Part shown: positions 1,975-26,955 of the stretch, one piece after another
Layout of the letters: the number at the start of each line of letters is the position of its first letter
How positions within the stretch are numbered: the stretch's first letter is position 1
Virus record (IMG/VR): IMGVR_UViG_3300011116_000941
Coordinates: 1-35,695 of that record
DNA: 35,695 bases
Direction: 5' to 3' (one strand)
DNA from: a virus
Program-made: the position numbers and the translations under genes
The notes under the pieces: generated by a model
Databases searched by the model: none
Told to the model about the DNA's origin: nothing
Seen by the model: only the letters and a program-made list of their open reading frames with translations

Positions 1975-4900
1975 TTAAGCGTTTTTAGGATTCCAGTATC
2001 CACGAGAATAAACATCATCTACATTTACCTTGTAAATTTTGCCATTTCCACGCTGAACATACCCTAAGTGTTCTTTGCCATTTATGCCGTCAAAAATTCC
2101 AACACTGTAGAGTTTTGAAGATTCACTAGTAGCAACAAGTTTTGCATTGGTCGGAATAAAATTCACAGTACCCCTAAACATTTTTGATAAATCTTTTGAT
2201 TCCGCTTCATCTGCAAAAATAATTTTTGACGCTGGCACACCAACACTAATTAATCTGTCAACTATTGTTTCTCCACCAAAATCTTCGTCTTCAAAGTCTC
2301 TGTATTCTACTGGCAAAACAATATATTTAATATCTTGTTTTTTTACTCCACCATGAATTTGCGCTTCAAGATATCCACCAACATCGCCAGAGCCAAAAAC
2401 TTGTGATGATGCTGTAAATTCGCTACTGCCATGATATGTAGGAAATGATAACTCTGAATGTGTAGTTACCATGTTTAACGAATCGCCTTCGTTCCAAGTT
2501 GTTCTTGCGTTTGTTTTTTTGTCAACAACTAGAGCAATTCTTCCGTATTGCGAAGCCAAGCCATTAATTTCTGAATCAAAACCTTGAGGGTGAACTTGAC
2601 CATAAACAGGTCTTAAAGACGGTTCTAGTGACGGGTGTAAAGAAAAAGACGCAAGTTCTTGTGCCGCTCTTTGCCTAGTGCTTAAAACTCCACGACTTGA
2701 ACCAGTTTCAAATTGAGTTTTGTATCTTCCATCTTCAGGAGTAAAAATACGCATTACTACATCTTCTTCTGCATTTAAGGTTACAACTTCATCACCATCT
2801 CTGCCACCAAAAATCATTGACCTAGAATCTCTTTCTATCTTGTCTAAATCTAGACCACCATCTGAGGCAATTGTTTTATCAAAACTATCTTCCATTTCTG
2901 ACCATGGTTTTGACCTTTGACCAATGTAGATTGAAGCCCTTCTCATTCTGCCTTGAATTCTTGCACGGGCGTGAAGACCTTCAAAAACAATTTTTGCTTC
3001 TTGTGGTGTAAAACCAAGTTTTCCCAATTGTGATTCAAGAATACCAAATTCTTTGCCAGTCATGTTGAAATTTTTTGTGTATTCCAAAACCATTTCTGAA
3101 TAAAGTTTTGCTATTTCAGGGTTCATTGAATTAGGCATTAACCATTCAATCGGTGCGCCAGTTTTTCTAGCAACTTCCAAATCGTTTGTTGGTTTTGGTA
3201 AAGCATCGTAACCTGAGTGTTGCATAATTTCTCCGTCAAGAGTTGCATCGCCACCAAACAATTTTCCTTGACTGGGTGTTCTTCCACCATTAGGTGCAAA
3301 AGTGAATCTACCGAGTTCATCATGGTACGGATTGAACTTTTCAATATCATAGGGTATTGATGCACCATCGGTTAGATAAACCATAAGTGGGTGAGTCGGT
3401 GACAGTGTAAGTAAATTCAAAACTTTTGTTTTTCTAACCATGGCTTTCAAAAGTGCTTCGGGTGTTGGAATACCAAAGCCAGTATCGTTGCCGTTTAACA
3501 CAACTTTTACGAACGGCAACCATCGCTTGTAAAAAGTTTGTGTGCTTTTTACTCTTGAACGACCAAGCAACCACCAAGCCGTAAATCCTTCTGCGAGCAT
3601 TTCGTAAACATCAGAAGTGCCATATTTTGCAGGAGTTTCCAAGCCGAATTGTCGTTTGGCATTCGGGTTATTTGCATTGACATAAGTGTAGTGATGACCA
3701 ATCTCGTGAACTGCTACGCCATATGTATATTTGGCAACCAAATCTTCTTGAGATGTAACAACTGGGTAATCGCTTGTGTAATTGGTTTGAGCAACAGTTG
3801 GTGCGTTTAATATGCGAGGGCCTGAATCATTCGCAACTTTGTCGGCAATTAGTTTTGCTCTTCGGTCATCGGTATAATCAATGACCATATCGCCTGCTCG
3901 TTTATCTTGGTCGCCAGCGTATTCGCCATCTGCATCTCTCAATGCAGTAGTAAAACTAATTGTCAATTTATCAATCGGAATACCCATGGCTTTAGCCTCT
4001 TCTAAGGCTTGTGCCGTAGCCTGCATTTGTCTTTTAGCATTTTTACCTTTAGCAAAATCGGGCGTTATGGTTATAGATTCAACGCCTAACTTTTTAATTG
4101 ACTTTTCAACTTGAGAAACTGTTTTGCCATAACGCTTATCTGCTTTGTTTTCAGGCAAAACTTGTGCAATTCCATTTGCATCGGGTGGCATCAAAAGTTT
4201 GCTAGAGCCTTCTGCGGCAAGTTTTTCTACAGCCGCTTTACGCTCTGCGCTACTAAAACGAATAAGTGAAGTTACTTTTCCTTTAAGACCCAAAGCCCTG
4301 CGATTCATTTTTGGCTTTGCAGAAATTCTTTTTCCAGCAGGTGCAAAAGTAAAACGCCCCAATTCATCATGGTAAGGGTTGAACTTGCTTAAAACATATT
4401 GTTCAAATTTCTCATCATCAGTTTTGCCAATGAATAAACGCTTTTGTGCCGCAGACATGGCGATACCTTGCGAGCAACGACAATTCGGATGTATTGCTGA
4501 TGGATAATCCACAAAACCGTTTGGTGTTAACCATTGTTCAAATATGCCAACTTCAACATTGTTCATCGGCCCACATATCTCACATACACGCTCGTCGTAA
4601 CTTGTAGTCCAAACACGCTTTGCATCAGGTGGCAACGAACCATCGGCTACTGCTTGTCGCCAAAATTCTGCCTGACCAATACCAGTGGCACGAGCAATTT
4701 CTGTTCTTGCGATGGTGTTGGCACGATATCTCAACAATCTGTCTGCATACTTGTCGGCTAATTTTTTGGCGTTTGCTTTTGTAGCACCACTTTGAATGAG
4801 TGTGTCGTAATATCGGTCAACTGCATCCGAATGTGCAGGCAATAAACCAACACGGCTTTCAATTATCTTTACTGCTTCACGCCGAGTAACAATTCCTTCC

Positions 4901-5314: not shown

Positions 5315-6739
5315 TTATTCTTCGCTTAACTCTAGTGCAATCTTTTCCACTGATTCTTCAGTATTGGCTACAACTTTAGGCTCTTGTGCTGGCGGTTGTG
5401 GTTTTGCTGGTTGTGGTTGTTGAGCCTGCGCTTGTGGTTGTGGTTTTGACATATCACCCTTGGCGCTTTCACGCTTTTCAGGCAATTTGGCAATAGAGCG
5501 CAGATGATTTTCAAGTGCATCATCAGGAAACAGTGGAACTCCTGCACCTGCAAGAACCTGAATGTAGTTGCCAAGTTCGCCCAATGGTGGAGTTTCAATA
5601 TCGCCGTATTCAATGGTTGGCAGTTTCTTTAGTTCAAAACCATTGACCTTGAAGAGTCTAGGAATAGCGTGTTCATTAAATACAGAGCGAATGATTTCAA
5701 GCCAGCATCGCAATGAAATTGAAAACAAGTTTGTTTTGTCGGATGAAAGAGCGTAACTACCATTAGCGGCTTGACCTAACAAAATAAAGTCTGCCAAAAC
5801 ACTCGTAGCAATTCTTTGGTCGTATCTTGTAATAATTGTGTTCGTATCAAAACTTCTATTTCCACCTGCCGAAATGAGTTCCATGCGATACATCAAATTG
5901 TTTTTGTCATCGTAAATTGCAGGCAGAATCATGCCCTCTTGTTGGTCACGGCGAATGTTACGAATTGCTGACTTGTAATCCTCGTAGATTGCCTGCTGTG
6001 CGGCAGGTGCATCTGTTCGCATAATGTCAGGGTCAACATACATAACTGGAAAGCCAGCCAAGTCTCTTTCAACACCGATTGCTTCAATCTCTTCAATTCG
6101 GCGCTTGAAATACCATGGTCGGTAGGCGTTTCGCAGAATAGAACGACCCTCAGGGTTGTTTTTATCCGAAGTAGTTCTGAACAAAAGAGCCTTGCCAATC
6201 GGAATTGTCTTCAGGGTGAAGTCGGGTGGAGAAGACTGCACCATGGCTGTAACGCCGCCAGCGTCATCAAACTCCCAGTATTGGCGTGTATCTTGCGCTC
6301 TAATCGGTATCTTGCGCCAGCCAATCAAGCCATCTGTGTATTTTGAACGAGTTTCGCTACTGTTCGTATCAGGCCCTAATCGTTTTTTGTAAACAATTTC
6401 GTGATACGAAAAACCGTAAGTAAGCATTGACAAAATTTCGCTAATCAAATCTTCCCAAGAAGTTGACATATCTTGGATGCAGGATTCCACAAATTTAGCG
6501 GCTCTTAAATCTTCATTAGCCGATGATGCCGACTGAACTCGCCATGATACTTGGCGAACCAATTTGTCAATAGCGAAAAGAATAGCGCCAACTACAGGGT
6601 CGTTATCACGCATTTCACGGTATGTCTGAATTGCCCGATACCCTTGTAATTGGGGCAAAAACTCTTCATAAACATAGCCATTAGAACGCCGTAATCCAGT
6701 AGCGCCTGCTTCTCTAAATAAACCTTTATCGCTTGCCAC
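5315..6739 (-). CDS. Portal protein (DUF935/Mu gp29-like)
   Basis: 474 aa. The portal dodecamer forms the DNA channel at one head vertex and docks terminase and tail. Visible family features are the early RDNDPVVGAILFAIDKLV helix, WEDLISEILSMLTYGFSYHE, GWRKIPIRAQDT, PIGKALLFRT and a conserved GRSILRNAYRPWYFK stretch, the layout of DUF935-type portals. The C-terminus (about 430-470) is a Gln/Pro-rich tail, probably disordered. Translation starts at GTG 6739, preceded by GGAGG at 4 bases. It is the first gene after a strong terminator and is followed directly by the MuF gene, the usual portal-MuF order. Confidence 0.88.
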   Translation of the reverse strand: MASDKGLFREAGATGLRRSNGYVYEEFLPQLQGYRAIQTYREMRDNDPVVGAILFAIDKLVRQVSWRVQSASSANEDLRAAKFVESCIQDMSTSWEDLISEILSMLTYGFSYHEIVYKKRLGPDTNSSETRSKYTDGLIGWRKIPIRAQDTRQYWEFDDAGGVTAMVQSSPPDFTLKTIPIGKALLFRTTSDKNNPEGRSILRNAYRPWYFKRRIEEIEAIGVERDLAGFPVMYVDPDIMRTDAPAAQQAIYEDYKSAIRNIRRDQQEGMILPAIYDDKNNLMYRMELISAGGNRSFDTNTIITRYDQRIATSVLADFILLGQAANGSYALSSDKTNLFSISLRCWLEIIRSVFNEHAIPRLFKVNGFELKKLPTIEYGDIETPPLGELGNYIQVLAGAGVPLFPDDALENHLRSIAKLPEKRESAKGDMSKPQPQAQAQQPQPAKPQPPAQEPKVVANTEESVEKIALELSEE

Positions 6740-8497: not shown

Positions 8498-8810
8498 AAT
8501 CATCTCCTTTGATTATCTTAGTTGCTTCTTTTCTTTCAATTTCGGTTAATCCACCTGCAATGCCCTTTATGAGAATTGTTTCAATTGACCAAATTCTACA
8601 GTGTTCTAGAACTGGGCATTGTTCGCATAATGCTTTGCAATCTCTCACTACCCTAACACGGCTACAACCCTGTTTGTGATTTATGCAACGAACACTGCAA
8701 CGATGCCTAAAGAATAGCGCTGTTTTTTCTTTACAAAGTGCGTATTTACGCCACTCTCTGTTCAAGAAATTGTCTTCCGTAGAGGGCAATGGCGGAAGCG
8801 TCATAGACAT
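8466..8810 (-). CDS. whiB: WhiB-family Fe-S regulator with Cys-rich insertion
   Basis: 114 aa from ATG 8810, which has CAGGAAATCAAG just upstream; the longer open frame only overlaps RuvC. WhiB proteins bind a [4Fe-4S] cluster through four Cys and act with the primary sigma factor. Here C26, C62, C65 and C71 give the C-n-CxxC-x5-C pattern, and GIAGG (about 84-88) replaces the usual GVWGG turn. Between the first and second ligands is an insertion with four extra Cys (38, 42, 49, 58) and His, which ordinary WhiB proteins lack. The gene overlaps RuvC (65 bases) and the next gene (32 bases), so it is translated from a shared message. Confidence 0.8.
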   Translation of the reverse strand: MSMTLPPLPSTEDNFLNREWRKYALCKEKTALFFRHRCSVRCINHKQGCSRVRVVRDCKALCEQCPVLEHCRIWSIETILIKGIAGGLTEIERKEATKIIKGDDYAEEPTDDYC

Positions 8811-9724: not shown

Positions 9725-10400
9725 AATCTTCTAGCCTTTCAGGTAGGTAATCGTTTGTAATTGCATCGTTAAGAGATTCAAGTATTTCTTTTATTTCTTT
9801 AATTATATTTGGGTCTAAGTGAATTGGAATTTCATGCCATTGCTGGGTTGACTTACACTCGTAAACAATTGCCGCTTCTTCTAATCCACTGGCAAGTAAA
9901 TATGCGTGAACTTGTTTAATGTGCGCTGGCAAAGCGCCCCGTGCTTGAATTTGTTTGAATTGGCTTGTTCCTTTTAACTCAAACATCCACTTTTCTTCGG
10001 CGTTTATGCCATCCATTGAGCCTTCAATACGGTATTCACTTGAATACACTGCAACTTCAATATCAGTTAATACGCCTGCTTCAAGCAACATAATTTGCCA
10101 ACGGAGATGGCGAAAGTGACCATCGTTGAAAAGATTTTGTAGTGTCGGGTCGTACACTCGCAAACTTGGTGCATCATGGTAGCCGTACACTTGCGCTCGC
10201 TTGCACTGATACAACTGTGATGGGTGAAAAGCACCTGCACGAGACTTTGATACTGTCGGCATCAAAATACTTGATATACGATTGTAGATATCAGGGTTAG
10301 TTATGTGAACGCCATTTGGATGATTTACTAACCATGGCGTAATCTTCGGCGTTATTCTTGAGTTCATTTTTGCAAAACGAACTGCTTGTTTAAGTTTCAC
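9621..10400 (-). CDS. Cas4/RecB-like PD-(D/E)XK exonuclease
   Basis: 259 aa from GTG 10400, which overlaps the upstream TGA as GTGA and has GAGAGG 6 bases before. Nuclease core: NDGHFRHLRWQ, then EGSMDGI, MFELKGTSQFKQIQ (the E-x-K of the active site), and QVHAYLLASGL. A Cys in LYQCKRAQ (about 67) together with the C-terminal cluster (EDCENKTG, NSCSYSQICHGC, about 225-248) fits the 4Fe-4S-stabilised nuclease of the Cas4/AddB family. It probably resects double-strand ends to feed RecA. There is no CRISPR array or other cas gene nearby, so this is a phage recombination exonuclease rather than an adaptation protein. Confidence 0.8.
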   Translation of the reverse strand: MKLKQAVRFAKMNSRITPKITPWLVNHPNGVHITNPDIYNRISSILMPTVSKSRAGAFHPSQLYQCKRAQVYGYHDAPSLRVYDPTLQNLFNDGHFRHLRWQIMLLEAGVLTDIEVAVYSSEYRIEGSMDGINAEEKWMFELKGTSQFKQIQARGALPAHIKQVHAYLLASGLEEAAIVYECKSTQQWHEIPIHLDPNIIKEIKEILESLNDAITNDYLPERLEDCENKTGATYNSCSYSQICHGCNTPSDIVAFRSSK

Positions 10401-10642
10401 TGCTTGCCTCTCTTAATGTTGATGGTGGCTGTAATATCTGAATCCGTAAAATAAATTACGAACACTGGTTCTTTTAATTCCAAAGCACCACGCTTCCATA
10501 AAGCAAAGAGTTCTTTGCCTTTGATTGTGTATGTTTTGTTTGCATCTTTAATTTCATAAATTGTCTCCTTATCGGATGCGTCATGCTTAATGCGTAAAGC
10601 GCCTGATGCTGGATGAACTCTTGCATTTCTTTTCTTTGCAAT
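10397..10642 (-). CDS. Small resolvase/nuclease-like protein; start codon unresolved
   Basis: About 80 aa. The coding part reads HPASGALRIKHDASDKETI, then YEIKDANKTYTIKGKEL, WKRGALELKEPVFVIYFTDS. Its SGA, D, E-x-K and PVFVI sequence order resembles small PD-(D/E)XK nucleases such as archaeal-type Holliday junction resolvases. No ATG, GTG or TTG lies in this frame between the RecA stop and the conserved part. The nearest in-frame ATG (10804) would overlap RecA by 163 bases in low-complexity sequence. The start given is an ATT that overlaps the RecA TAA. A -1 frameshift at the A5-G run at the end of recA would instead produce a RecA-nuclease fusion. The product call is tentative. Confidence 0.55.
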   Translation of the reverse strand: MAKKRNARVHPASGALRIKHDASDKETIYEIKDANKTYTIKGKELFALWKRGALELKEPVFVIYFTDSDITATINIKRGKQ

Positions 10643-15070: not shown

Positions 15071-15396
15071 TACTTATTCTGATTTTGCTTGTTGAACTTT
15101 CTCTGCCTTATTGCATCAGGCCCGTTTGATTTGCTCAAACGATATCTTTCTTCGTATTCGGTTGCAGGGTCGTAACGATAAAGAGTGCCACTTTCAGTGT
15201 CACGCAAACGAAGAATCGTTACTCCTAGGTCTTCTATTGCCCGTAGAACATATCCCATAGAGCGTGGTGAGAAATGCCCTACAGCATCGCAAATGTCTGC
15301 CCACGAGACTGTTTCACCCGATAACAAAAGTTCTGCAACATCATAACGCTTTGCTTCTCTTGCTTTGTTAAACGGATTTTTTGGTTTTGTTGCCAA
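15070..15396 (-). CDS. Small protein with possible winged-helix fold
   Basis: 108 aa from TTG 15396, with AAAGGAA 7 bases upstream. The middle reads DVAELLLSGETVSWADICDA, then SPRSMGYVLRAIEDLG and TLYRYDP: helix, helix, putative recognition helix and beta wing. That spacing suggests a winged-helix DNA-binding fold, but I see no diagnostic motif. Both ends are basic. It lies between the SSB gene and the Cys-pair gene. Confidence 0.55.
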   Translation of the reverse strand: MATKPKNPFNKAREAKRYDVAELLLSGETVSWADICDAVGHFSPRSMGYVLRAIEDLGVTILRLRDTESGTLYRYDPATEYEERYRLSKSNGPDAIRQRKFNKQNQNK

Positions 15397-15422: not shown

Positions 15423-15466
15423 GTGGTATGGGAAAAGCGAAAGGGGGGAAGCGATTCCCATACCAC
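15423..15466 (-). terminator. Long perfect hairpin downstream of the SSB gene
   Basis: An 11-bp perfect stem (GTGGTATGGGA 15423-15433, TCCCATACCAC 15456-15466) encloses a 22-base loop with a G6 run. It begins 11 bases after the SSB stop. No T-run follows on the minus strand, so it may be a 3'-end stabiliser or processing site, or a terminator of the less T-dependent actinobacterial type. Confidence 0.55.
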
Positions 15467-15477
15467 GACTTGTTCGG

Positions 15478-16503
15478 TTATTTTTCCGAAGCCTCAATAA
15501 TTGCGGCAATCATTTCTGTCTTTGACATTTCATCGTTTTCAATTCCCATGTCTTCGCAGATGATTCGCAAATCACGCAATTTCATGGCATTGAGTGTTTC
15601 TTCGTCAAGAACTTCTTCTTCATCACTCTCATCGTCTGTCGGCACAGCGCCTTTGACTTTTGTTTGTGAGGCAAGAATTGATTCAACTTCAGTCATACTG
15701 TCATCATCCACAACAATATCTAGTGTTTCAATAATTTCTTGCAACCATTGTGGCTTGTTTGCTTTGACCCAGTTCAATTCTTCAAGCGTGTAATCTTCAC
15801 GAACTGTCTCATCGCCTGAATCGTCTGTAGGGAAGATTGTTTCGTAAGAGTAACTAGCCGAACTAACAACTTTCTTTTTCGGCTTTTCTGCAACCATTAC
15901 TAGTGTTGCATTGTTTGACTTTCCTACTGCAACCAATGTCTTTTCATCTTCATCAATGTCATCATCATCAAGAGATGAAACTGATTGTGAAGTGTCTTTT
16001 TCGCCAAGCGCCGACTCTCTTGCCTTAATCAGAATTTCTTCAAGATTAAGTGCTTCGTACTTTGCGAGATTCAACTTTGATGGTGCGTCAGGCGTTACAT
16101 CGTAAGTTGTGTCCAAACCTTCGCCATGCTTTTGCAATTCATAGTTTCGGTCAATCATCGTGCCGTACTTGTCGTACTTGAGAATCAGACTGTTTGCAGT
16201 TGTCTTCGCAAGTTTGATTGGGATTACACGGTCAGTTTCAATATCAATTGCTGATGCAAGATATCGGAAAGATGCCCTAGCGCCATCAGGGAGTATTTCA
16301 CCGATTGCCATTGGCACGAAATTGCGACTCTCATCGTTCCAGTATTCATAGAAGCCGAACCATTCTTCGGGTTCAGTGATGAAACGGACTGTGATTCCTT
16401 CGGCTGGCACATTCTTGATGAATGTGTTCAGAGAAGAACCACCTTTTTTCAGTGATTCTTTTAGGGCTTTGATATTCCCCATCTTCTTTCCACTTATATT
16501 CAT
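15478..16503 (-). CDS. Phage single-stranded DNA-binding protein (gp32-like)
   Basis: 341 aa. Start is ATG 16503: AGGAGGT lies 6 bases upstream, whereas the ATG at 16548 is inside the -10 box of the promoter and cannot be transcribed from it. Residues about 20-150 (SLNTFIKNVPAEG, FRYLASAIDIETDRVIPIKLA, ANSLILKYDKYGTM) match the OB-fold DNA-binding region of phage SSB-type proteins. A long acidic, low-complexity linker (DDDDIDEDE, DDESDEEEV) follows. A C-terminal helical segment (MKLRDLRIICEDMGIE, EMIAAIIEA) is like a SAP/Rho-N fold. It would coat ssDNA for DnaE, DnaB and RecA. The strong promoter and ribosome site suggest high expression. Confidence 0.8.
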   Translation of the reverse strand: MNISGKKMGNIKALKESLKKGGSSLNTFIKNVPAEGITVRFITEPEEWFGFYEYWNDESRNFVPMAIGEILPDGARASFRYLASAIDIETDRVIPIKLAKTTANSLILKYDKYGTMIDRNYELQKHGEGLDTTYDVTPDAPSKLNLAKYEALNLEEILIKARESALGEKDTSQSVSSLDDDDIDEDEKTLVAVGKSNNATLVMVAEKPKKKVVSSASYSYETIFPTDDSGDETVREDYTLEELNWVKANKPQWLQEIIETLDIVVDDDSMTEVESILASQTKVKGAVPTDDESDEEEVLDEETLNAMKLRDLRIICEDMGIENDEMSKTEMIAAIIEASEK

Positions 16504-16544
16504 GTTTTGACCTCCTACGGTCTTTGTTGTTTTGGTATTGACTG

Positions 16545-16573
16545 ACATTACTTTTCATTAACGCATTTGTCAA
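16545..16573 (-). promoter_or_regulatory. Sigma-70-type promoter of the SSB gene
   Basis: Minus-strand TTGACA (16568-16573), a spacer of exactly 17 bases, and TAATGT (16545-16550). The predicted start is near 16538, about 35 bases before the SSB ATG. The -35 box is perfect and the -10 has two differences from TATAAT. It is the best promoter I see in the window. Confidence 0.75.
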
Positions 16574-16661
16574 GTATTTGATAAGAGGTGGGATTTCGCT
16601 TGTTTACTGTAGGGAAATGAAAGTAACCCCACAGGCAAGACAGCAACGCCATTGGAAGGAG

Positions 16662-16690
16662 TTCTAGATGACTATGAAGCATCTAGAACA
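16662..16690. other. Perfect 10-bp hairpin downstream of whiB
   Basis: GTTCTAGATG (16662-16671) and CATCTAGAAC (16681-16690) enclose a 9-base loop, 29 bases past the WhiB stop. No T-run is present. It separates the WhiB operon from the SSB promoter and may act as a weak terminator or mRNA end. Confidence 0.45.
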
Positions 16691-18456: not shown

Positions 18457-18506
18457 AAAAAAAAAGACCATCGCAACGGAATTACCCGAAGCGATGGTCT
18501 TTTTTA
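18457..18506. terminator. Strong bidirectional terminator
   Basis: GACCATCGC (18466-18474) and GCGATGGTC (18491-18499) form a 9-bp perfect stem around a 16-base loop, with an A-run on the left and a T-run on the right that lengthen the helix. It starts 3 bases after the lytic enzyme stop on the minus strand. Confidence 0.85.
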
Positions 18507-19723: not shown

Positions 19724-20049
19724 TATTTTTTCTCCTTTGCTTTGTCTAGTGAACTTGCAACCACGATAAGTTTGTTCAAAGAATCTTTAATTCTTAATTT
19801 TTTGCCATAGAGAATGTTCATGTGCAAACTATCCATGACATCGGCAAACTCTTGATTTTCAGAAATCAGTTTTGCCCAAGCGTGTTGTTTGTAAAACATG
19901 AACACTCGCAATAATTCACGCCATTCTTCTTTGTTTTTGTAATCGGCGTATTGTTCTTTGAACTTCATTATTTGTTCGGGAAATGTGAACACTTTGCCTG
20001 TCCAAACCCAAACATTTTCTTCTTTATCGTAAACCAAGTTTGCTGACAT
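19723..20049 (-). CDS. Hypothetical protein in coupled small-gene chain
   Basis: 108 aa, Trp/Tyr/Lys-rich: NVWVWTGKVFTFPEQIMKFK, WRELLRVFMFYKQHAWAKLI. It ends LDKAKEKK, encoded by the bases that also form the next ribosome site. TAATG coupling occurs at both ends. No family recognised. Confidence 0.6.
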   Translation of the reverse strand: MSANLVYDKEENVWVWTGKVFTFPEQIMKFKEQYADYKNKEEWRELLRVFMFYKQHAWAKLISENQEFADVMDSLHMNILYGKKLRIKDSLNKLIVVASSLDKAKEKK

Positions 20050-20363
20050 TATTTATTCTCCTTTTCTTTTTGGTTGTTTATTGCCTGTTCGTATCTTGTA
20101 TGCAATGAATTTGCGAGTGCTGGTGGCACAAAAATTTCTGTGTCGCCATCTTCAAACATTGCTTTCCAACATAACGGGTGGATACCAGTGAGTATTTGCT
20201 CACGGTCTTCGGCTGGCATTGTAGGAAAAGCCTGCATAATCAAAGCACCACTTTCGTAGAGTTCAATTCTTGCAACTTCTTCTGCTGTCATTCCAACTTC
20301 ACCGATTTCACTGCACCAAGGGCAAGGCTTGGTTTCTAAATAACCGAATATCTTTCGCTTCAT
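20049..20363 (-). CDS. Phage protein with CPWC site; tail derived from the dispersed hairpin repeat
   Basis: 104 aa. KPCPWCSEIG at the N-terminus could bind zinc with C64 in HPLCWK. The middle (ARIELYESGALIMQAFPTMP, then REQILTGIHPLCW) resembles short phage proteins that contain GALIQ-AFP and REFLLTGIH, which I recall ending soon after this point. Here the chain continues with EIFVPPALANS, whose DNA is a copy of the repeat CAGAAATTTTTGTGCCACC found in the hairpins at 21.4-26.1 kb. The last residues KEKENK encode the next gene's AAAGGAG. TAATG coupling at both ends. Confidence 0.65.
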   Translation of the reverse strand: MKRKIFGYLETKPCPWCSEIGEVGMTAEEVARIELYESGALIMQAFPTMPAEDREQILTGIHPLCWKAMFEDGDTEIFVPPALANSLHTRYEQAINNQKEKENK

Positions 20364-20701
20364 TATTTATTCTCCTTTGTTTTGTTGATGTATTGTGTTA
20401 ACAGGTGTTGCAGTAACGCTTCTAACTGACTTTCAGTTGTGATAGTAACCATCAATCCAACTACAAATTCTGTGGAGTTTTCGCCCCAAAGTTTTTTTGT
20501 CAAATGGATAATGTCCAACCCCAAGTTTTCCATTCTTTCTTGTTTTTCTTCTGCATCATCTTCTTCTTCATTGTTGGTAAGAAAATAACCATCGGCTTTT
20601 TTCTTTGCCACTTCATACTCACTTTCTTGTTTTGCATCTTGATTTGTAAATGCAATCCAATGAGCATTAACGATTTCTTCCATTATTTCTTGATTCCACA
20701 T
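20363..20701 (-). CDS. Hypothetical acidic protein
   Basis: 112 aa. NEEEDDAEEKQERMENLG forms a very acidic middle; WNQEIMEEIVNAHWIAFTNQ and LMVTITTESQLEALLQHLL flank it. It ends NKTKENK, with the next ribosome site in these codons. No family recognised. TAATG coupling. Confidence 0.6.
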   Translation of the reverse strand: MWNQEIMEEIVNAHWIAFTNQDAKQESEYEVAKKKADGYFLTNNEEEDDAEEKQERMENLGLDIIHLTKKLWGENSTEFVVGLMVTITTESQLEALLQHLLTQYINKTKENK

Positions 20702-20907
20702 TATTTGTTCTCCTTTGTTTGGTTGATGTGTTTTGTTCTTTCGTTTGCGAGAAAAACAAGAAGTTCATCAAGTTCTTTCGCAAGTTCTTCAATTGAATTG
20801 AATTGTGGGTGGTCAAAAACATCGCAATCTCTGTTTTCAATTTTCCCCATCAAAACCAATTGTTCTTGGGCTTTCTTCAACAATTGATATTCGTAATCGT
20901 TATACAT
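20701..20907 (-). CDS. Hypothetical 68-aa protein, first of the coupled chain
   Basis: MYNDYEYQLLKKAQEQLVLM, SIEELAKELDELLVFLANER: two amphipathic helices. It ends NQTKENK, overlapping the ribosome site of the next gene. AAAGGAG precedes its ATG; hairpin 20934-20967 lies 27 bases upstream. No family recognised. Confidence 0.6.
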   Translation of the reverse strand: MYNDYEYQLLKKAQEQLVLMGKIENRDCDVFDHPQFNSIEELAKELDELLVFLANERTKHINQTKENK

Positions 20908-20933
20908 TATTTTCTCCTTTGGTCGTAAATGCC

Positions 20934-20967
20934 AATCGGCAGTACCACTGGTGTGATACTGCCGATT
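20934..20967 (-). other. Intergenic hairpin H1 (11-bp perfect stem)
   Basis: AATCGGCAGTA (20934-20944) and TACTGCCGATT (20957-20967) around a 12-base loop CCACTGGTGTGA. It occupies the same kind of position as the H2-H6 repeats, between a stop codon and the next ribosome site, but its loop is different. There is no T-run. Confidence 0.6.
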
Positions 20968-20991
20968 AACAACTTTTTTTATTACTTGTGG

Positions 20992-21387
20992 TTAGTAAGC
21001 GATGAACTCGTAACCATCTTCTATTGGATTTACCCGTTCAGGGTCTTGACCTTCGCCTTCTAGGTTTTCGTAAAGACCTGCGGCGATTTCGTATGCCCAT
21101 TCTGACGGGTCAATTCGGTAAGTAACCGATTTGTCGTCTGATGTTGCAACGGCAACAATTTCGCTTGTGTCTTGCCGAATGAATTCAATTGTCGTGAATA
21201 CTTCTTGCCCTTCGTAGGCAAGGTCAAGAAGTTGTTCAACGGTTTTGACGGAAATCTTGAGATTTTGCATATCAAGTTTTTCGTCTGATTCTTCTTCTTC
21301 GGCTACTTCGGAATCTACCGTGTCGGTATCTTCCAGTTCTGCTTCAAGCGCTCTTGTCGGGCGCTTCTTCTTTTTCTTTGCAACCAT
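20992..21387 (-). CDS. Hypothetical acidic protein with basic N-terminus
   Basis: 131 aa. MVAKKKKKRPTRALEAELED, then an acidic stretch (DSEVAEEEESDEKLD), then a folded-looking part (TVEQLLDLAYEGQEVFTTIE, VTYRIDPSEWAYEIAAGLYE). No family recognised. AAGGAG precedes the ATG; the H2 hairpin lies about 40 bases upstream. Confidence 0.6.
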   Translation of the reverse strand: MVAKKKKKRPTRALEAELEDTDTVDSEVAEEEESDEKLDMQNLKISVKTVEQLLDLAYEGQEVFTTIEFIRQDTSEIVAVATSDDKSVTYRIDPSEWAYEIAAGLYENLEGEGQDPERVNPIEDGYEFIAY

Positions 21388-21425
21388 GTGTTTTCTCCTT
21401 ATGGTTTTTTTTGGTTAGAATTGCG

Positions 21426-21464
21426 AGCGCAGGTGGCACAAAAATTGCTGAGCGCACCTGCGCT
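21426..21464 (-). repeat. Dispersed hairpin repeat H2
   Basis: Stem AGCGCAGGT/ACCTGCGCT (21426-21434 and 21456-21464) with additional pairs inside. On the minus strand the loop region reads CAGCAATTTTTGTGCCACC, one base different from the H3/H4 core. It lies between the CobT-like gene and the next gene. The sequence that follows (CTCGCAATTC) also matches the copy inside the 20049-20363 gene. Confidence 0.75.
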
Positions 21465-21495
21465 TTGTTCAGTATAGCGCATTGAATAGCATTGA

Positions 21496-23778
21496 TTATG
21501 GTTTCATCATTGCCCCCGTAATATGCTTTCCAATAGCGTTTGTCAAACTGACGCAATCGTGGCTTTGGACTAGGTACTGATGACCGTAATTTACTGGTGT
21601 TAATTTGCCATCAGGTAGCACCCTTTGTGATATTGGAGAGAAATTAGGCTTTTCAATGACTAAGCCGCCATTTAATTCGCTTGCATTTCCCCAAGCATAA
21701 GAACTAGGCAATTGAACCAAGAAGGTTAAAGCACCACTCTTGTTCATATCTTCAATTGCCTTAAGTCCTAGCCTGTCAACAAACCAATCGCCATCGGTAA
21801 TTGAAAACAACAACCTGTGTTTGGCTTCTGACTTCTGCAAAATAGTTTTTGCAATTGTCAAAACCTGTTCAGGATATGTTCCACCCCTACAGTCAAAAAT
21901 TGGTATTTGACTTAAACCAACTTTTGTTTCTGTGGAATATAGAGCCTGATAACTGTCATCGTAACCAATTACCGAACATGGGATATCGTGCTGGTTGCAG
22001 GCATATTTGATTGCCCACATTGATGCCGATGCTTCACCCATGGTATTCATCATTGGCGACAGAAGATTTGGTGAACCAACTGTGTACGACCTAGATGCCA
22101 TGCTTGAAGATTGGTCAAGCAAAATTACAACTTCGGCATCGGGTCGTTCATCGCCTTCATCAAGATATTCGTCAAATACATCAAAATGTAAGTCACGACT
22201 CTCAATTGAGCGCATAATGTTGAATTTTCCAAATGAACTGCCAGTTTCCCATTGATTATCAGAATCAGCCTTCAACTTGCCGATTGTTCGGGCAAGGTTT
22301 GTTGCTAATGCACGATAAGCAATTGGTGTTTGTGCAAAATGGCTTGGTTTTTCACATTTTGAAAACAACTTGTCATATTTTGTTGTTTCAACAAGAGATG
22401 AGATTTGTGAAAGCACATCTGCCATTTCTTGTTGAACAGTGACCTTGTTGCTTTGAAAAACTTCGGCAAATACTTTGTCTTTTTCAGACAATTTTGATTT
22501 ATTTGAAGAAGAGTTTTCTTTTGACAAACTTCCTGAATCATCAGAATCATCATCAGAATCGTAAGAATCATCAGAGTCATCATCAGAATCGTTATCTGAA
22601 TCTTCATCAGAATCATCATCAGAGCCACCTGAACTATCTGAATCGTCAGAATCTTCGGAATCTTCGGAATCGTCATCAGAATCGCCTGACCCTTCTGAAT
22701 CATCAGAATCACCTGAATCATCTGAATTACCCGAATCATCGGAATCTTCTGAATCTTCTGAATCGTCAGAATCTTCGGAATCAAACTCTTCTTCTTGCTG
22801 TTGCCGTATTTCGTGCAGTTCTTCAACTTCACTGTCGGTTTTTGTATTGGTGTGTTGTGAATGACCACCAACATTGTCATCTCCGTGTTTGGCAACTTCT
22901 TCAAGGATGTTGTTGCGCCCTAAAATAGCCAAATACTTTTTGCATATTTCTAAGGCAGTTTTGTCTTCATTGCCTTTTTTGCAAGCGCTTGGTGTCAATG
23001 ACAAAGAGCGAAAAGTATCGTTTAGGTTGCTCAACAAATCCAAATCTTTTTCTGAAATAGATTGGCTTGCAATCAACTGTTCACGAAATACTTTTCTCAA
23101 TTCAAGTGGCAAATACTTTCTGCCATCCATCAACACAAAACTAAATGTTGTCGGATTTTTCGCAATGTATTTCATTACTGCATCAGTGAAAAAGTATTGC
23201 GATGCTGGATATTTTGCCACAAACAAACTCTCAATTCGTGCATCTTCTAGCAGATTGAAGATTTTTGGAAGGTGAGCAGAAACCAACGGATTTGTCGTTG
23301 TCTTCACTTCTTCCATAATCATCTTCACTACAGAAGATGTTCGTTTTGGAGTAAACAAACAGTGGGCAAGTTCATGGTAATTTAATCCACGAAGTTCACC
23401 GAGCCTGTCCATTAATTTGTTTTGTGCAAGTGTGTTGCCAACCATTGAATTTTTTTGACGATTGACATACGCCTTGAATGCAGTTTCCAAATTGTCAAAT
23501 TTGAAGAAAACAGTGTTTCCGTCAGTAAAAGCAAGTGCATCATTATTTGACAATTCGCACTTGATTTGCCTGCCTGCCAAAATACTGTTGACCCTGCTAA
23601 ACAAAACGGTAAATGCTTCAAGGTATTGAGCAATCGTTTCTTTGTCTGTTTGGTTCTTGATTTGATTTTCTAGTGTTTGTTCGCCTTCACGCCAAGAATG
23701 TTGTCTTGACAAAACATTTTGTGGTTGAACAATGTTTTTTGACGAGTTTCCACCATTTCTGTTTCTGTTTCTACGCAT
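21496..23778 (-). CDS. cobT: CobT-like VWA protein with HExxH motif and Ser-Asp repeat linker
   Basis: 760 aa. N-terminal part (1 to about 330): helical, with LNYHELAHCLFTPKR at about 130, an HExxH-type motif found in CobT-like phage and bacterial proteins. Residues about 330-415 are an almost pure Ser-Asp-Glu tract. The C-terminal VWA domain has VVILLDQSSSMASRS at about 545, an intact MIDAS D-x-S-x-S, and later SITDGDWF. In cobaltochelatase CobT works with the AAA+ CobS, but CobN is absent here, so this pair more likely forms a MoxR/VWA-type remodelling machine. The CobS-like gene lies directly upstream. AAAGGAG precedes the ATG. Total length and layout match phage CobT-like proteins; the substrate is unknown. 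Confidence 0.8.
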   Translation of the reverse strand: MRRNRNRNGGNSSKNIVQPQNVLSRQHSWREGEQTLENQIKNQTDKETIAQYLEAFTVLFSRVNSILAGRQIKCELSNNDALAFTDGNTVFFKFDNLETAFKAYVNRQKNSMVGNTLAQNKLMDRLGELRGLNYHELAHCLFTPKRTSSVVKMIMEEVKTTTNPLVSAHLPKIFNLLEDARIESLFVAKYPASQYFFTDAVMKYIAKNPTTFSFVLMDGRKYLPLELRKVFREQLIASQSISEKDLDLLSNLNDTFRSLSLTPSACKKGNEDKTALEICKKYLAILGRNNILEEVAKHGDDNVGGHSQHTNTKTDSEVEELHEIRQQQEEEFDSEDSDDSEDSEDSDDSGNSDDSGDSDDSEGSGDSDDDSEDSEDSDDSDSSGGSDDDSDEDSDNDSDDDSDDSYDSDDDSDDSGSLSKENSSSNKSKLSEKDKVFAEVFQSNKVTVQQEMADVLSQISSLVETTKYDKLFSKCEKPSHFAQTPIAYRALATNLARTIGKLKADSDNQWETGSSFGKFNIMRSIESRDLHFDVFDEYLDEGDERPDAEVVILLDQSSSMASRSYTVGSPNLLSPMMNTMGEASASMWAIKYACNQHDIPCSVIGYDDSYQALYSTETKVGLSQIPIFDCRGGTYPEQVLTIAKTILQKSEAKHRLLFSITDGDWFVDRLGLKAIEDMNKSGALTFLVQLPSSYAWGNASELNGGLVIEKPNFSPISQRVLPDGKLTPVNYGHQYLVQSHDCVSLTNAIGKHITGAMMKP

Positions 23779-23824
23779 TTTGTATTCTCCTTTAGTTGTT
23801 TTGAATAAAAAATTTTTTTATTGA

Positions 23825-23860
23825 GCATCGGTGGCACAAAAATTTCTGAGCCACCGATGC
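23825..23860 (-). repeat. Dispersed hairpin repeat H3
   Basis: GCATCGGTGGC (23825-23835) pairs perfectly with GCCACCGATGC (23850-23860), 11 bp. The 14-base loop is identical to that of H4. It lies between the CobS-like stop and the CobT-like ribosome site. It is followed on the minus strand by CTCAATAAAAAAATTTTTT, as is H4. A 13-base palindrome GTTCGTAACGAAC covers the CobS-like stop codon just upstream. Confidence 0.8.
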
Positions 23861-23882
23861 GTCAACATTGACTTTTTGTTCG

Positions 23883-24866
23883 TTACGAACTTGCGTTGTT
23901 GGTGTCGCTTGGTTCAACTGGCTTTTTGCCGACTGCGAACTCTGATTCTTCATAGAAATCGCCTTCGTTCAAGTCAGAATAGATTCTTTCGGCAACATTC
24001 GCCAAAACTTCACGAACCACACCTGCTTCATCGGCAGGAAAGTTGTTCAGGAAATTGTTCATTGCGAAATCAAAACTTGCAGTTTCATTCCACTCTTCAA
24101 CTTCCATAAGCATATTCGTGCTGATAGGTGTAGTCAGGTTGCCCAAGTCAACTTGCGAACGCAAATTGGTTGCCAACTCAATCAAAGCATCGCTGTTAAG
24201 CAATTCTTTTTCAATTGCATTTTCGTATGGAAAGTGCAATTTCATTGCGAAACGATTCTTGAACGCTTGATTAAGTGGGCGTGTGCCGTGATAATCAGGA
24301 TTGTAAGCGCCGATAACAAAGCACTTCGGGTGAAGTGGGATGCTTGTCGGGCAACTTGAACCTGATGCTTCGGGCAGGCTGATTGTTCGCCTACGGTCTA
24401 ACATTCCGTGGATGTAAGCCGCAATTTTTGGTGGCAAAAAGTTGACTTCATCAAGATAGACGATGCCACCGTGTATGCAGGCTTGAACAACTTCGCCAGC
24501 GATGAAATCTACCGACTTGTCAGGTCGTGGAGTCCATCCACCAATGAAGATTCGTGGTTCTGCACCACCGTTGCAGGGAACATTGACTACTGGCAAACCT
24601 TGTTCAGCGCCAAAAGCGTAAACGAGGGATGTTTTTGCCGAACCAGTTGGCCCGTAAACAAGAACATTGTGTTTTGCTTCCAATGCCAATTTCAAAGCAT
24701 CAAGGTCTTTGATTCCACCAATCTCACGACTGATGTATGCACCATCATCTGACCATTTTGCTTTGCTAGGTATTAAGTGTGCTAACGGATGTTTTGATTC
24801 TTCCATTACTTTCTCCTTTTCTTTGGTTGTTTTGTTGGTTGTTTCTGACAATTTACTTGTCTTCAT
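23883..24866 (-). CDS. cobS: CobS-like MoxR-family AAA+ ATPase
   Basis: 327 aa from ATG 24866. A second in-frame ATG at 24806 (307 aa) has an equally good AAGGAG, so two forms are possible; the open frame to 24959 has no ribosome site. Numbered from 24806: Walker A VYGPTGSAKTSL at 50-61, Walker B GGIVYLDEVNFLP at about 103-115, then YIHGMLDRRRTISLPE, FVIGAYNPDYHGTRPLNQAF (sensor 1) and FKNRFAMKLHF (Arg finger region). This is the CobS/MoxR layout. It should drive conformational change in a partner through the VWA protein encoded next. Confidence 0.85.
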   Translation of the reverse strand: MKTSKLSETTNKTTKEKEKVMEESKHPLAHLIPSKAKWSDDGAYISREIGGIKDLDALKLALEAKHNVLVYGPTGSAKTSLVYAFGAEQGLPVVNVPCNGGAEPRIFIGGWTPRPDKSVDFIAGEVVQACIHGGIVYLDEVNFLPPKIAAYIHGMLDRRRTISLPEASGSSCPTSIPLHPKCFVIGAYNPDYHGTRPLNQAFKNRFAMKLHFPYENAIEKELLNSDALIELATNLRSQVDLGNLTTPISTNMLMEVEEWNETASFDFAMNNFLNNFPADEAGVVREVLANVAERIYSDLNEGDFYEESEFAVGKKPVEPSDTNNASS

Positions 24867-24904
24867 TTGTTTCTCCTTTTTGTTGTTTTTTTTGATTTTT
24901 GACT

Positions 24905-24947
24905 TCCCAGCACTTTTTTTGGTTTTTGACCGTTTTTTATGCTGGGA
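24905..24947 (-). other. Hairpin with A-rich loop upstream of the CobS-like gene
   Basis: TCCCAGCA/TGCTGGGA (24905-24912 and 24940-24947) form an 8-bp perfect stem with a 27-base, A-rich loop on the minus strand. It lies 38 bases before the ATG at 24866 and directly after H4. It could be a leader control element or a processing site. Confidence 0.5.
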
Positions 24948-24978
24948 CTTTTTTGGCACAAAAAAATTTTTTTATTGA

Positions 24979-25014
24979 GTGCAGGTGGCACAAAAATTTC
25001 TGAGCCACCTGCAC
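24979..25014 (-). repeat. Dispersed hairpin repeat H4
   Basis: GTGCAGGTGGC (24979-24989) pairs perfectly with GCCACCTGCAC (25004-25014). The 14-base loop ACAAAAATTTCTGA (plus strand) is identical to H3, although the outer stem bases differ in a paired way. It lies between the zinc-finger-like gene and the CobS-like gene. Confidence 0.8.
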
Positions 25015-25036
25015 TTTATTCGCTACCTGTTCGGAA

Positions 25037-25285
25037 TTACTTTTCTTCGGTTACTTTCGTGTAGCAGTCGTCGCACAACAAATGTTCTGCGTCAACATCA
25101 ATCTGCCAATACGGTGTTGCACTGCCATAATCGGAATCAATTCCAATTATTGTTTTGCAACTTGAACAAGAACCGTCAATTTCAGTGTGTTCAAGTTCCC
25201 AATCGTAATTGATACCAATTGGGTCAAACACGAAATGGACTGGCTTTTCAATTTGATTCGTTAACCAATTGTCAAATGCTGTCAT
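25037..25285 (-). CDS. Small protein with two CxxC pairs
   Basis: 82 aa from ATG 25285, TAATG-coupled to the gene before and preceded by AAAGGAG. GSCSSCKTI and HLLCDDCYTK give two CxxC pairs spaced about 27 residues apart, a likely zinc ribbon. Other parts: FDNWLTNQIEKPVHFVFDPI and YWQIDVDAEH. No family recognised. Confidence 0.65.
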   Translation of the reverse strand: MTAFDNWLTNQIEKPVHFVFDPIGINYDWELEHTEIDGSCSSCKTIIGIDSDYGSATPYWQIDVDAEHLLCDDCYTKVTEEK

Positions 25286-25527
25286 TATTTTTTCTCCTTT
25301 TTCTTTGTTTTGTTTACTGGTGTTGCATAGCAAAAAGTTGTTTGCCTACCTTTTGAGTTGAAAACTCGGAAGTAAACTTCACCATTGCGTTTTTCTTCAA
25401 TTTTGAGTGAATAGCCACGCTGTGCGAGTGCCACGCCTAATCCACCTTGCGCTCTTTCAAACGCCTTCTTTTTTGTGATATTTGGAATTATGAAATATGG
25501 CGTATGCAAATCATATTTTCTGTTCAT
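25285..25527 (-). CDS. Hypothetical basic protein
   Basis: 80 aa. PYFIIPNITKKKAFERAQGG, YSLKIEEKRNGEVYFRVFNS: alternating strands and helices. It ends NKTKKKEKK, whose codons contain the next ribosome site. AAAAGGAG precedes its ATG; H5 lies about 35 bases upstream. No family recognised. Confidence 0.6.
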   Translation of the reverse strand: MNRKYDLHTPYFIIPNITKKKAFERAQGGLGVALAQRGYSLKIEEKRNGEVYFRVFNSKGRQTTFCYATPVNKTKKKEKK

Positions 25528-25562
25528 TTATTTCTCCTTTTGTTTGGTTTTTGGATATTACG

Positions 25563-25602
25563 AGCGCAGGTGGCGACCAAAATTTGGTGGCGCACCTGCG
25601 CT
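25563..25602 (-). repeat. Dispersed hairpin repeat H5 (diverged)
   Basis: AGCGCAGGT/ACCTGCGCT outer stem (25563-25571 and 25594-25602), the same as H2. The inner part has become ACCAAATTTTGGT on the minus strand, itself a small palindrome, so the inside has changed while pairing is kept. It lies between two small genes. Confidence 0.7.
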
Positions 25603-25616
25603 TTATTCTGTATTCG

Positions 25617-25994
25617 TTAACGCTTGCCTTTGCTTGCAACTGGTCTTTTGCCTTTTCTTGTAATTTTCTTTTTGTTGTTTTTTGAATGATGCAAACTGCT
25701 TAGGCAAAGTATGTACATTCTCCTAATTGCCAAATCATCTGAATCACGAATAGATGACCAGTCATAATTTGACCAAGAAGAGATGCCAGCAGAAAATAAC
25801 AAGTATGTTGGCAAATCGTTGTATTTCTTGAATCTGAACTCATCAAGACCATACCAAGCCTTGTAAATTACTTTCAGGTATTTTTCTTTTTCTGATTGCT
25901 TCAGTTTGAATGCTTTCATTTTTTTCTCCTTTTTTGTTGTTTGTAACTTGATGCCGTTTTTATCACGATAAAGACTTCCACTTACTTTTCTCAT
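25617..25994 (-). CDS. Hypothetical basic protein with two good in-frame starts
   Basis: 125 aa from ATG 25994, or 100 aa from ATG 25919. Both ATGs have strong ribosome sites (AAAAGGAG and AAAAAAGGAG). The segment between them ends TTKKEKK, the same kind of tail that encodes the ribosome site at other gene ends here, but without a stop. The body has KAWYGLDEFRFKKYNDLPTY, LAIRRMYILCLSSLHHSK, and the end is very basic (KKKITRKGKRPVASKGKR). No family recognised. Confidence 0.55.
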   Translation of the reverse strand: MRKVSGSLYRDKNGIKLQTTKKEKKMKAFKLKQSEKEKYLKVIYKAWYGLDEFRFKKYNDLPTYLLFSAGISSWSNYDWSSIRDSDDLAIRRMYILCLSSLHHSKNNKKKITRKGKRPVASKGKR

Positions 25995-26031
25995 TTATGT
26001 CTCCTTTTGTTTGGGTTGATATTGGTATTCG

Positions 26032-26092
26032 GTTGCGATGAAGCAGAGGGGTGGTGGCGCAAAAAATTTTGAGCCAACTACTTCATCGCAAC
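26032..26092 (-). repeat. Dispersed hairpin repeat H6 (longest stem)
   Basis: GTTGCGATGAAG (26032-26043) pairs perfectly with CTTCATCGCAAC (26081-26092), 12 bp. The 37-base loop contains GGTGGCGCAAAAAATTTTGA (plus strand), a diverged version of the shared core. It lies immediately after the tRNA-like element in the minus direction and 37 bases before the ATG at 25994. Confidence 0.75.
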
Positions 26093-26096
26093 TTTG

Positions 26097-26155
26097 TGCC
26101 AGCGTCAGGAGTTGAACCCGATACGGTTGCCCGATATTCTGCAACACGCACTGGC
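26097..26155 (-). ncRNA. tRNA-like element lacking a D arm
   Basis: 59 bases. Acceptor stem GCCAGTG (26149-26155) pairs with CGCTGGC (26098-26104) over 7 bp with one G-T pair, followed by discriminator A and CAA instead of CCA. A full T arm is present: stem TCGGG/CCTGA and loop TTCAACT, which fits TTCRANY (26105-26121). Only 27 bases separate these two parts. They form one hairpin, GTTGC/GCAAC with a 10-base loop, so the D arm is missing and the anticodon loop is not standard. It may be a decayed tRNA, an armless tRNA, or a tRNA mimic that RNase P processes ahead of the leftward operon. Confidence 0.6.
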
Positions 26156-26399: not shown

Positions 26400-26691
26400 C
26401 GCAGTTTACAACTTGGCTGGCGATTCAAAAGTGTCGTTGCGAATCCTTATGTTCGTCAACATTGACCTGACCGAGAAATTCACTGTTTCTTCGGTACTGA
26501 CGCTTCCTGATGAGTCCTACTGGCTATCGTTGCCTTTGCATATCCGCAAGGATGAGGGCTTCAAATGGTGCGATAGGCAGGTGCGTTCGTGTCTTTCAAC
26601 TTTTCGCCGTTTTTCAGTTTTCAAGGTACAGAAGAGATTCTATCAAATAATGGCATTAATGACAAGCAATGAATTCAATGAAAACGCTTAA
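26400..26691 (+). pseudogene. Possible remnant of a phage gene (SpoVG-like segment?)
   Basis: An open plus-strand frame runs from about 26224 to a stop at 26691. Its first half is Ser/Cys-rich and unlike a protein. Its second half (FVNIDLTEKFTVSSVLTLPD, YWLSLPLHIRKDEGFKW) looks like real coding sequence and faintly recalls SpoVG-type proteins (strand pattern, LSLPxRKD). No start with a ribosome site is present, and codon use (CTG, ACC, GAG) differs from neighbours. The stop lies inside the stem of a plus-strand terminator, which supports past or present transcription. Start position is a guess. Confidence 0.3.
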
Positions 26692-26715
26692 AATAAGGCA
26701 AATAAGCGTTTTTTG
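26683..26715 (+). terminator. Rho-independent terminator, plus strand
   Basis: AACGCTTA (26683-26690) pairs with TAAGCGTT (26703-26710), an 8-bp perfect stem with a 12-base loop, followed by a T-run. It ends the transcript of the 26.2-26.7 kb region and shields the repeat array from it. Confidence 0.75.
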
Positions 26716-26774
26716 AAGGTTTTGGCAGGTTTTGGCTTGAGAAAGGCTGTTTTTTTCAATTTTCAAATGTCGGG

Positions 26775-26938
26775 AAAGCCTTATATCATAAGGGTTTTAT
26801 GGGTTTTTGGCATTTCTCAGGCAAAAAAGGGCTGTTTTTAAGGGTTTTTTGACCACTCTGTAAAAAAAGTGCAAAAAAGCCTTATTTTTAAGGGTTTTTT
26901 GATGTCTCTTACTAAAAGCCTTATTTTAAGCCATTTTA
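26775..26938. repeat. AT-rich repeat array (four copies, roughly 50-bp period)
   Basis: Unit roughly AAAAGCCTTATTTTTAAGGG followed by a T-run and GA. Copies are at about 26775-26800, 26824-26852, 26874-26902 and 26914-26938. The second and third are nearly identical and exactly 50 bases apart. Most copies contain a small palindrome of the type CCTTAT-n-ATAAGG. The array lies between a terminator and the helicase promoter. It may be an iteron array for origin binding, or tandem operators for a phage repressor. Confidence 0.6.
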
Positions 26939-26955
26939 TTGATTTCATTGATAAC

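Follow-up and report, generated by a model that had tools for sequence, protein, structure and literature searches.

Why does one viral operon carry strong hairpins in the gaps between its genes, a short distance before the next start codon? The question is raised by IMG/VR virus record IMGVR_UViG_3300011116_000941, positions 1 to 35,695 (the window, meaning the whole 35,695-nucleotide stretch analyzed here), in which the hairpins lie within a minus-strand operon of AAA ATPase and VWA/CobT-like genes. A first-pass annotation had reported five of them, with a common core and outer stems that differ between copies yet stay paired, and all five lie where it placed them, except that H3 extends over 24978-25015, beyond the 24979-25014 originally given. 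Our analysis supports selection for pairing in the stems. The explanation that we favor, tentatively, is that RNA-level intercistronic hairpins head and insulate the ribosome-binding leader of each gene.

Hairpins of the operon and selection on their pairing

The copies of the core, and one further hairpin beside H3, are located as follows (ORF, open reading frame).

21426-21464, minus strand: hairpin H1, between the ORF at 21496-23778 (VWA/CobT-like) and the ORF at 20992-21387
23825-23860, minus strand: hairpin H2, between the AAA ATPase ORF (stop at 23883) and the VWA ORF (start at 23778)
24978-25015, minus strand: hairpin H3, upstream of the AAA ATPase ORF
24906-24946, minus strand: second hairpin H3b, unrelated in sequence to H3, 39 nt before the ATG at 24866 and absent from the related sequence L006
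25563-25602, minus strand: hairpin H4, between the ORF at 25617-25994 and the ORF at 25285-25527
26032-26092, minus strand: hairpin H5, between a tRNA-like structure and the first ORF (start at 25994)
20111-20150, minus strand: H0, a copy of the core inside the ORF at 20049-20363, with a degenerate 5' arm and a weak sense fold

Each of the five hairpins H1 to H5 outscored 200 of 200 dinucleotide shuffles of its own gap, including H5, which lies in the operon leader. To follow the gaps along the strand, we took neighboring minus-strand genes between 26 and 11 kb, in descending order, from a gene list chosen by hand. All eight gaps of 80 to 170 nt contained a stem above all 200 dinucleotide shuffles; the stem in a 59-nt gap, the sole shorter one tried, did not exceed all of its shuffles. 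Four of the eight hold the shared core (H1 to H4), three hold unrelated hairpins, and one holds a U-tailed terminator, so that the core accounts for the H1-H4 gaps while the other gaps of at least 80 nt carry hairpins unrelated to it in sequence:

20934-20967, minus strand: hairpin between genes, unrelated to the core in sequence and 26 nt ahead of the start at 20907
15423-15466, minus strand: hairpin between genes, unrelated to the core in sequence and 26 nt ahead of the start at 15396
about 16661-16689: hairpin of unrelated sequence in a gap of at least 80 nt
18460-18505, minus strand: U-tailed hairpin with A- and T-runs and the shape of a canonical (bidirectional) terminator, a contrast case

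With a strand-neutral finder applied to 54 sequences, stem density was 1.9 per kb in noncoding and 0.26 per kb in coding DNA, figures that include ordinary terminators and depend on our own ORF caller.

To assess pairing, we aligned eight copies, of which seven are distinct, drawn from the window, L005, L006, and L018. Changes on both sides were present in 6 of 15 stem pairs, and 94.3% of cells were paired, a level reached by none of 500 shuffles; when the partners were slid, pairing fell to 33 to 55%. Orthologous regions in L005 and L006, which are 87 to 94% identical, gave an independent comparison: no change fell in the 90 outer-stem positions, whereas the other 297 positions compared had 15 (Fisher p=0.017). 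The H1 ortholog in L005 differs in the apex only; the H2 ortholog in L006 is identical; the H3 ortholog in L006 has an invariant stem and three apical changes, including G.U to A-U and A-U to G.U; and an H5 ortholog is present in L006. The loop had been described as conserved, whereas the region between the arms in fact varies (5 changes in 84 positions, versus 0 in 90 in the stems), and the apex in L016 is unlike that of the window. Recognition of the apical loop as the conserved feature was rejected on the grounds of this drift. Because of the compensatory changes, the invariant ortholog stems, and the hairpins at homologous places in a relative whose AAA protein is 67% identical, selection for pairing in the stems is supported, and the RNA fold, not the sequence, appears to be what selection preserves.

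Several details of sequence bear on how the copies arose. H2 and H3, both nearly perfect palindromes centered on AAATTT, share their 3' flank, and H1 and H4 also share flanks, indicating that each pair arose by duplication. The upstream GAAYAAAG that had been assigned to H2, H4, and H5 actually precedes H1, H3, and H4; GTTGAC precedes H2, and GGCACAAAG, the tail of the tRNA-like structure, precedes H5. A third exact copy of the 19-nt core lies within H0 (20122-20140), whose sense fold is -6.4 kcal/mol; the situation in L005 is the same. That the copies are functionless duplicated DNA decaying by mutation is the least probable of the explanations considered here: H0 and the half-copies in L018 to L020 do look degenerate, but the stem conservation, the compensatory changes, and the recurrence of hairpins with different sequence in homologous gaps all argue against it. 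Random positions without conserved pairing, which the first-pass annotation had named as the mark of such decay, were looked for in the relatives and did not occur, although some relatives have no hairpin or a half-motif.

As a sequence family the element is narrow, since covariance model R1, run over the relatives, finds few matches beyond its seeds and the L016 copies score weakly. This search, of the kind that the annotation had suggested, recovered H5, H0, and L019:6983-7018 (E 0.01) beyond the seeds. The L018 copy, between a tRNA-like structure and the AAA gene, scored 51.9 bits and is itself a seed. Two stricter DNA patterns found no further contigs with the motif, and L004, the first pattern match, has no strong hairpin at the matching site. 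Rfam 15 gave no match above the gathering score across the whole window, with chance-level matches alone near 26-27 kb, and a literature search on intergenic phage hairpins and phage tRNA-like structures found nothing relevant.

Pairing could in principle be selected in DNA, as an operator palindrome, a cruciform, or a REP-like mobile hairpin. The near-perfect palindromes of H2 and H3, the dispersed copies, and the shared flanks left by duplication would suit such an element, which we nevertheless disfavor as very improbable. Its center varies while the outer arms covary, equivalent gaps are occupied by unrelated hairpins, and the copies are confined to one operon, all in gene-sense orientation. 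Among 49 deduplicated U-less intergenic stems, chosen by a strand-neutral rule, sense-strand G.T mismatches outnumbered A.C mismatches 26 to 5; because coding stems lean the same way (17 to 6), we count this excess of G.U as supportive only. The sense fold was the more stable one in 18 of 26 named copies. No transposase was seen among the ORFs scanned, which were part of the total. A REP/RAYT element was rejected: the hairpins have no GTAG-type head, and the same partial set of ORFs contained no Y1-transposase (RAYT). Of the two kinds of structure first proposed, an RNA-level element therefore fits better than a cruciform, given the gene-sense orientation, the single operon, and sense mismatches that are mostly G.U and not A.C.

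Spacing to start codons and the terminator alternative

Downstream of the hairpins, the segments leading to the start codons are as follows.

25995-26031, minus strand: 37-nt A/C-rich leader with a Shine-Dalgarno site, after H5
25528-25562, minus strand: 35-nt A/C-rich leader, after H4
24867-24905, minus strand: 39-nt leader, after H3b
23779-23824, minus strand: 46-nt leader, after H2
21388-21425, minus strand: 38-nt leader, after H1

Nonterminator hairpins near starts are followed by 26 to 46 nt of unstructured, A/C-rich leader that carries the Shine-Dalgarno site. Leader composition is 53% A, 25% C, 11% G, and 12% T, and most fold energies are near 0, even in L016 (56% GC); the segments between stop codon and hairpin have 39% A and 24% T. 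Spacing varied less toward the next start than toward the previous stop: across 16 hairpins, the former distance was 38.0 +/- 6.9 nt (coefficient of variation [CV], 0.18), and the latter was 19.4 +/- 8.0 nt (CV, 0.41; range, 8 to 34 nt). These values were partly read by hand, and H3 of L006, entered as 45, is at ~42 by sequence, which leaves the picture unchanged. The window has ~70 nt extra after H3 relative to L006, bringing H3b to 39 nt before the start; in L006, which has no H3b, H3 itself is ~42 nt before the start.

What the DNA itself documents is conserved pairing, spacing, leader composition, and orientation, together with recurrence in relatives. From these we infer that the hairpins would act as RNA structures in a polycistronic transcript of the AAA/VWA operon, provided that the operon is transcribed as a single RNA. 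In each module, a strong hairpin without a U-tail would be separated from the start codon by ~38 nt of A/C-rich RNA that is unstructured and carries a AAAGGAGA-type Shine-Dalgarno site. The most likely role of the hairpin is to shield this landing site for ribosomes from the sequence upstream, and a gene could then initiate independently of its neighbor. The hairpin may also mark an RNA end, either capping the segment upstream at its 3' end or forming the 5' end of a downstream segment released by processing.

The serious rival, somewhat unlikely in our estimate, is that the hairpins are U-less ("I-shaped") or partial intrinsic terminators that end or attenuate transcription after the upstream gene and so grade expression along the operon. 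The annotation had correctly noted the lack of T-runs: the tails after the hairpins (CGTAATATCC, CAATAAAAAA, TCAATAAAAA, and CGCAATTCTA) contain no U-run of the canonical intrinsic kind, and a canonical terminator was rejected for H1 to H5. Mycobacterial I-shaped terminators, however, are described, though not without dispute, as having no poly-U and lying within 50 bp of a stop codon (2025 review, PMC12288462). In the window and its relatives, hairpins begin 8 to 34 nt past stop codons, and H1 to H4 begin 14 to 31 nt past them; in some relatives the tail is mildly U-rich. Phages that infect Gordonia and Brevibacterium supply the protein relatives, which makes an actinobacterial host likely; in proteins (~30 to 40% identity) and in operon order, the window matches Gordonia Bendigovirus phages and the Brevibacterium phage Cantare.

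Other evidence favors the leader over the terminator. Placement between a stop codon and the next ribosome site, as first described, holds for H1 to H4 and fails for H5, which follows the tRNA-like structure. Both H5 and the L018 copy stand before the first ORF, upstream of the entire operon, which indicates that the element does not need a stop codon ahead of it. The window already has a standard U-tailed terminator (18460-18505), so that type was available. A promoter scan returned 21 sites versus 18.9 expected, and no listed minus-strand site lies just after H1 to H5, where it could start transcription anew. As cited in the same review, earlier work reports that the mycobacterial polymerase needs a U-tract (referenced by PMC12288462).

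Host RNase III cleavage sites in the style of the T7 early operon, or binding sites for a phage protein, would likewise lie between genes and run in the sense direction. Immediately inside the GGTGGC/GCCACC helix, a 1x1 mismatch of pyrimidines recurs (T.T, C.C, or T.C), and an AYAAAG 5' of H1, H3, H4, and H5 could be a single-stranded cut site. We consider this improbable: the helices, at 15 to 16 bp including the mismatch, are short for RNase III, whose sites have an extended helix of ~20 bp, and apical sequence that drifts between orthologs and differs in L016 argues against recognition of the loop. The ORFs scanned, a subset of the total, yielded no RNA-binding candidate.

Several observations weigh against hairpins that head and insulate leaders. 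The stop-to-hairpin distance is also fairly constrained, and A/C-rich leaders might be selected regardless of what lies upstream. The copies are partly paralogs with about four distinct outer stems, leaving a modest number of covariation events, and some copies in L018, L019, and L020 are half-motifs without the full stem. Nor is the layout universal, since a stem above all 60 shuffles occurs in only 22 of 96 gaps of 55 to 200 nt among IMG/VR relatives and, among annotated Gordonia/Brevibacterium phages, in 8 of 17. Finally, a double stem-loop in a Mycobacterium smegmatis 5' untranslated region did not stabilize a reporter mRNA (PMC11728522), which weakens the part of the explanation that concerns RNA stability.

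The operon head and its counterparts in relatives

Immediately before H5 lies a structure that had not been marked earlier.

26097-26155, minus strand: tRNA-like structure with a 7-bp acceptor stem, a canonical T-arm, and a small extra hairpin, without a D-arm or anticodon arm

The structure is also present in L006 (9895), L018 (6805)/L078, L020 (5868)/L080, L079 (5211), and L016/L081 (L081:5217-5270), the last with a less typical T-arm. GTC and ACAARG always flank it, and a hairpin is close behind. Between the window and L006, a pair in the extra hairpin changes from G-C to A-U on both sides. Neither ARAGORN nor Rfam gave a match to this structure, which we regard as a separate conserved RNA overlooked by both. 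The pattern had 23 matches in bacterial genomes, none with a T-loop, which we took as chance. Two longer candidates with an acceptor stem and T-arm (106 and 142 nt) lie directly upstream of the AAA gene at L025:5968-6073 and 6087-6228.

Since the ACAAAG after the tRNA-like structure resembles the AYAAAG before H1, H3, and H4, those copies may derive from the leader of the tRNA-like structure and H5. At the operon head, the same module of hairpin and leader would follow a structure that host tRNA-processing enzymes could potentially cut. A broader proposal, which we hold to be unlikely as a whole, is that the operon is punctuated at the RNA level, with a D-arm-less tRNA-like head cut by host tRNA-maturation enzymes and interchangeable boundary hairpins, derived from the leader behind it, that would divide the transcript into units of hairpin plus open ribosome leader.

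The layout of hairpin and leader recurs in relatives that are 45 to 67% identical in the neighboring AAA protein, with different hairpin sequences. L008 and L016 (AAA protein, 67% identical; 56% GC) have hairpins with GGTGG/CCACC arms and a wholly different apex before the AAA gene, in the AAA-VWA gap, and in other gaps. Hairpins of other sequence stand at comparable places in L067, L018, and L019, and L016, L019, and L067 keep the layout with other hairpin sequences. L020 and L079 retain the motif's right half, which folds differently and pairs with downstream sequence to form a multihairpin structure (L020:6812-6937; L079, about 5520-5640); read by eye, CACCGCAC/GTGCGGT versus CACCACTG/CAGTGGTG looks compensatory. 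Cantare (L013) has a different dispersed palindrome, ATACATAGAAACTATGTAT-like, in gaps 3106-3265, 4115-4190, 5764-5826, and 8640-8703. Where the window has two genes and H4 (25314-25993), L006 has one unrelated gene (10060-10446), and the junction coincides with the leader that follows H5. Gene exchange appears to use hairpin/leader boundaries.

Proteins encoded in the window include a DnaE-type polymerase, DnaB, primase, portal, RecA, and ParB-like and Mom-like proteins, and the operon order runs from divergent helicase/primase genes to the AAA ATPase and VWA/CobT-like genes. A 356-amino-acid protein (15478-16548, minus strand) has a C-terminal match to the Rho_N domain (E 7e-6). The ~1-kb noncoding region between the divergent operons contains AT-rich direct and inverted repeats at 26667-26950 (AAAGCCTTATTTTTAAGGGTTTTTTGA), with a counterpart at L008:4030-4180 (CCCTTATGGAATAAGGC), and is possibly a replication origin.

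Comparison with known systems

In the T7 early operon, RNase III sites form hairpins in the intercistronic gaps. The window's hairpins are likewise intercistronic and might segment a long early transcript; their helix is shorter, and any cleavage is putative. Mycobacterial I-shaped terminators are similar in having a G+C-rich hairpin without poly-U soon after a stop codon (PMC12288462). The window's hairpins differ in that they also occur before a first ORF, keep a narrow distance to the start, and are followed by an A/C-rich leader; for them a terminator function would be conjectural.

The nearest published kind is the extended start-associated sequence (ESAS) of Cluster K mycobacteriophages and Cluster EF Microbacterium phages, which occupies short gaps upstream of nonstructural gene starts, in Cluster K as scattered inverted repeats and in EF as motifs; its sequence is uniform among the phages of one group and changes from group to group (PMC3203893, PMC7302621). 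Inverted repeats in intergenic gaps before nonstructural gene starts are likewise found in the window. ESAS adjoins a conserved 13-bp start-associated sequence, whereas the window's leaders lack such a sequence and have in common just the AAAGGAGA-type site. The discoverers of ESAS saw little support for pairing in mRNA; in the window's hairpins, compensatory changes support it. Cluster EG Microbacterium phages have 18-bp inverted repeats before starts, likened to the 17-bp repeats of Cluster O mycobacteriophages (PMC7302621). These, too, are inverted repeats in short gaps upstream of starts, but the EG repeats keep one consensus (GATCAACCNNGGTTGATC) 14 to 22 bp from the start, while in the window the stems stay paired as the sequence changes. 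Start-associated inverted repeats have been reported time and again from actinobacteriophages, and their function is not established. In cases from this lineage, it is pairing and not sequence that is conserved, and the geometry to the start codon is narrow, which makes a role in RNA directly testable.

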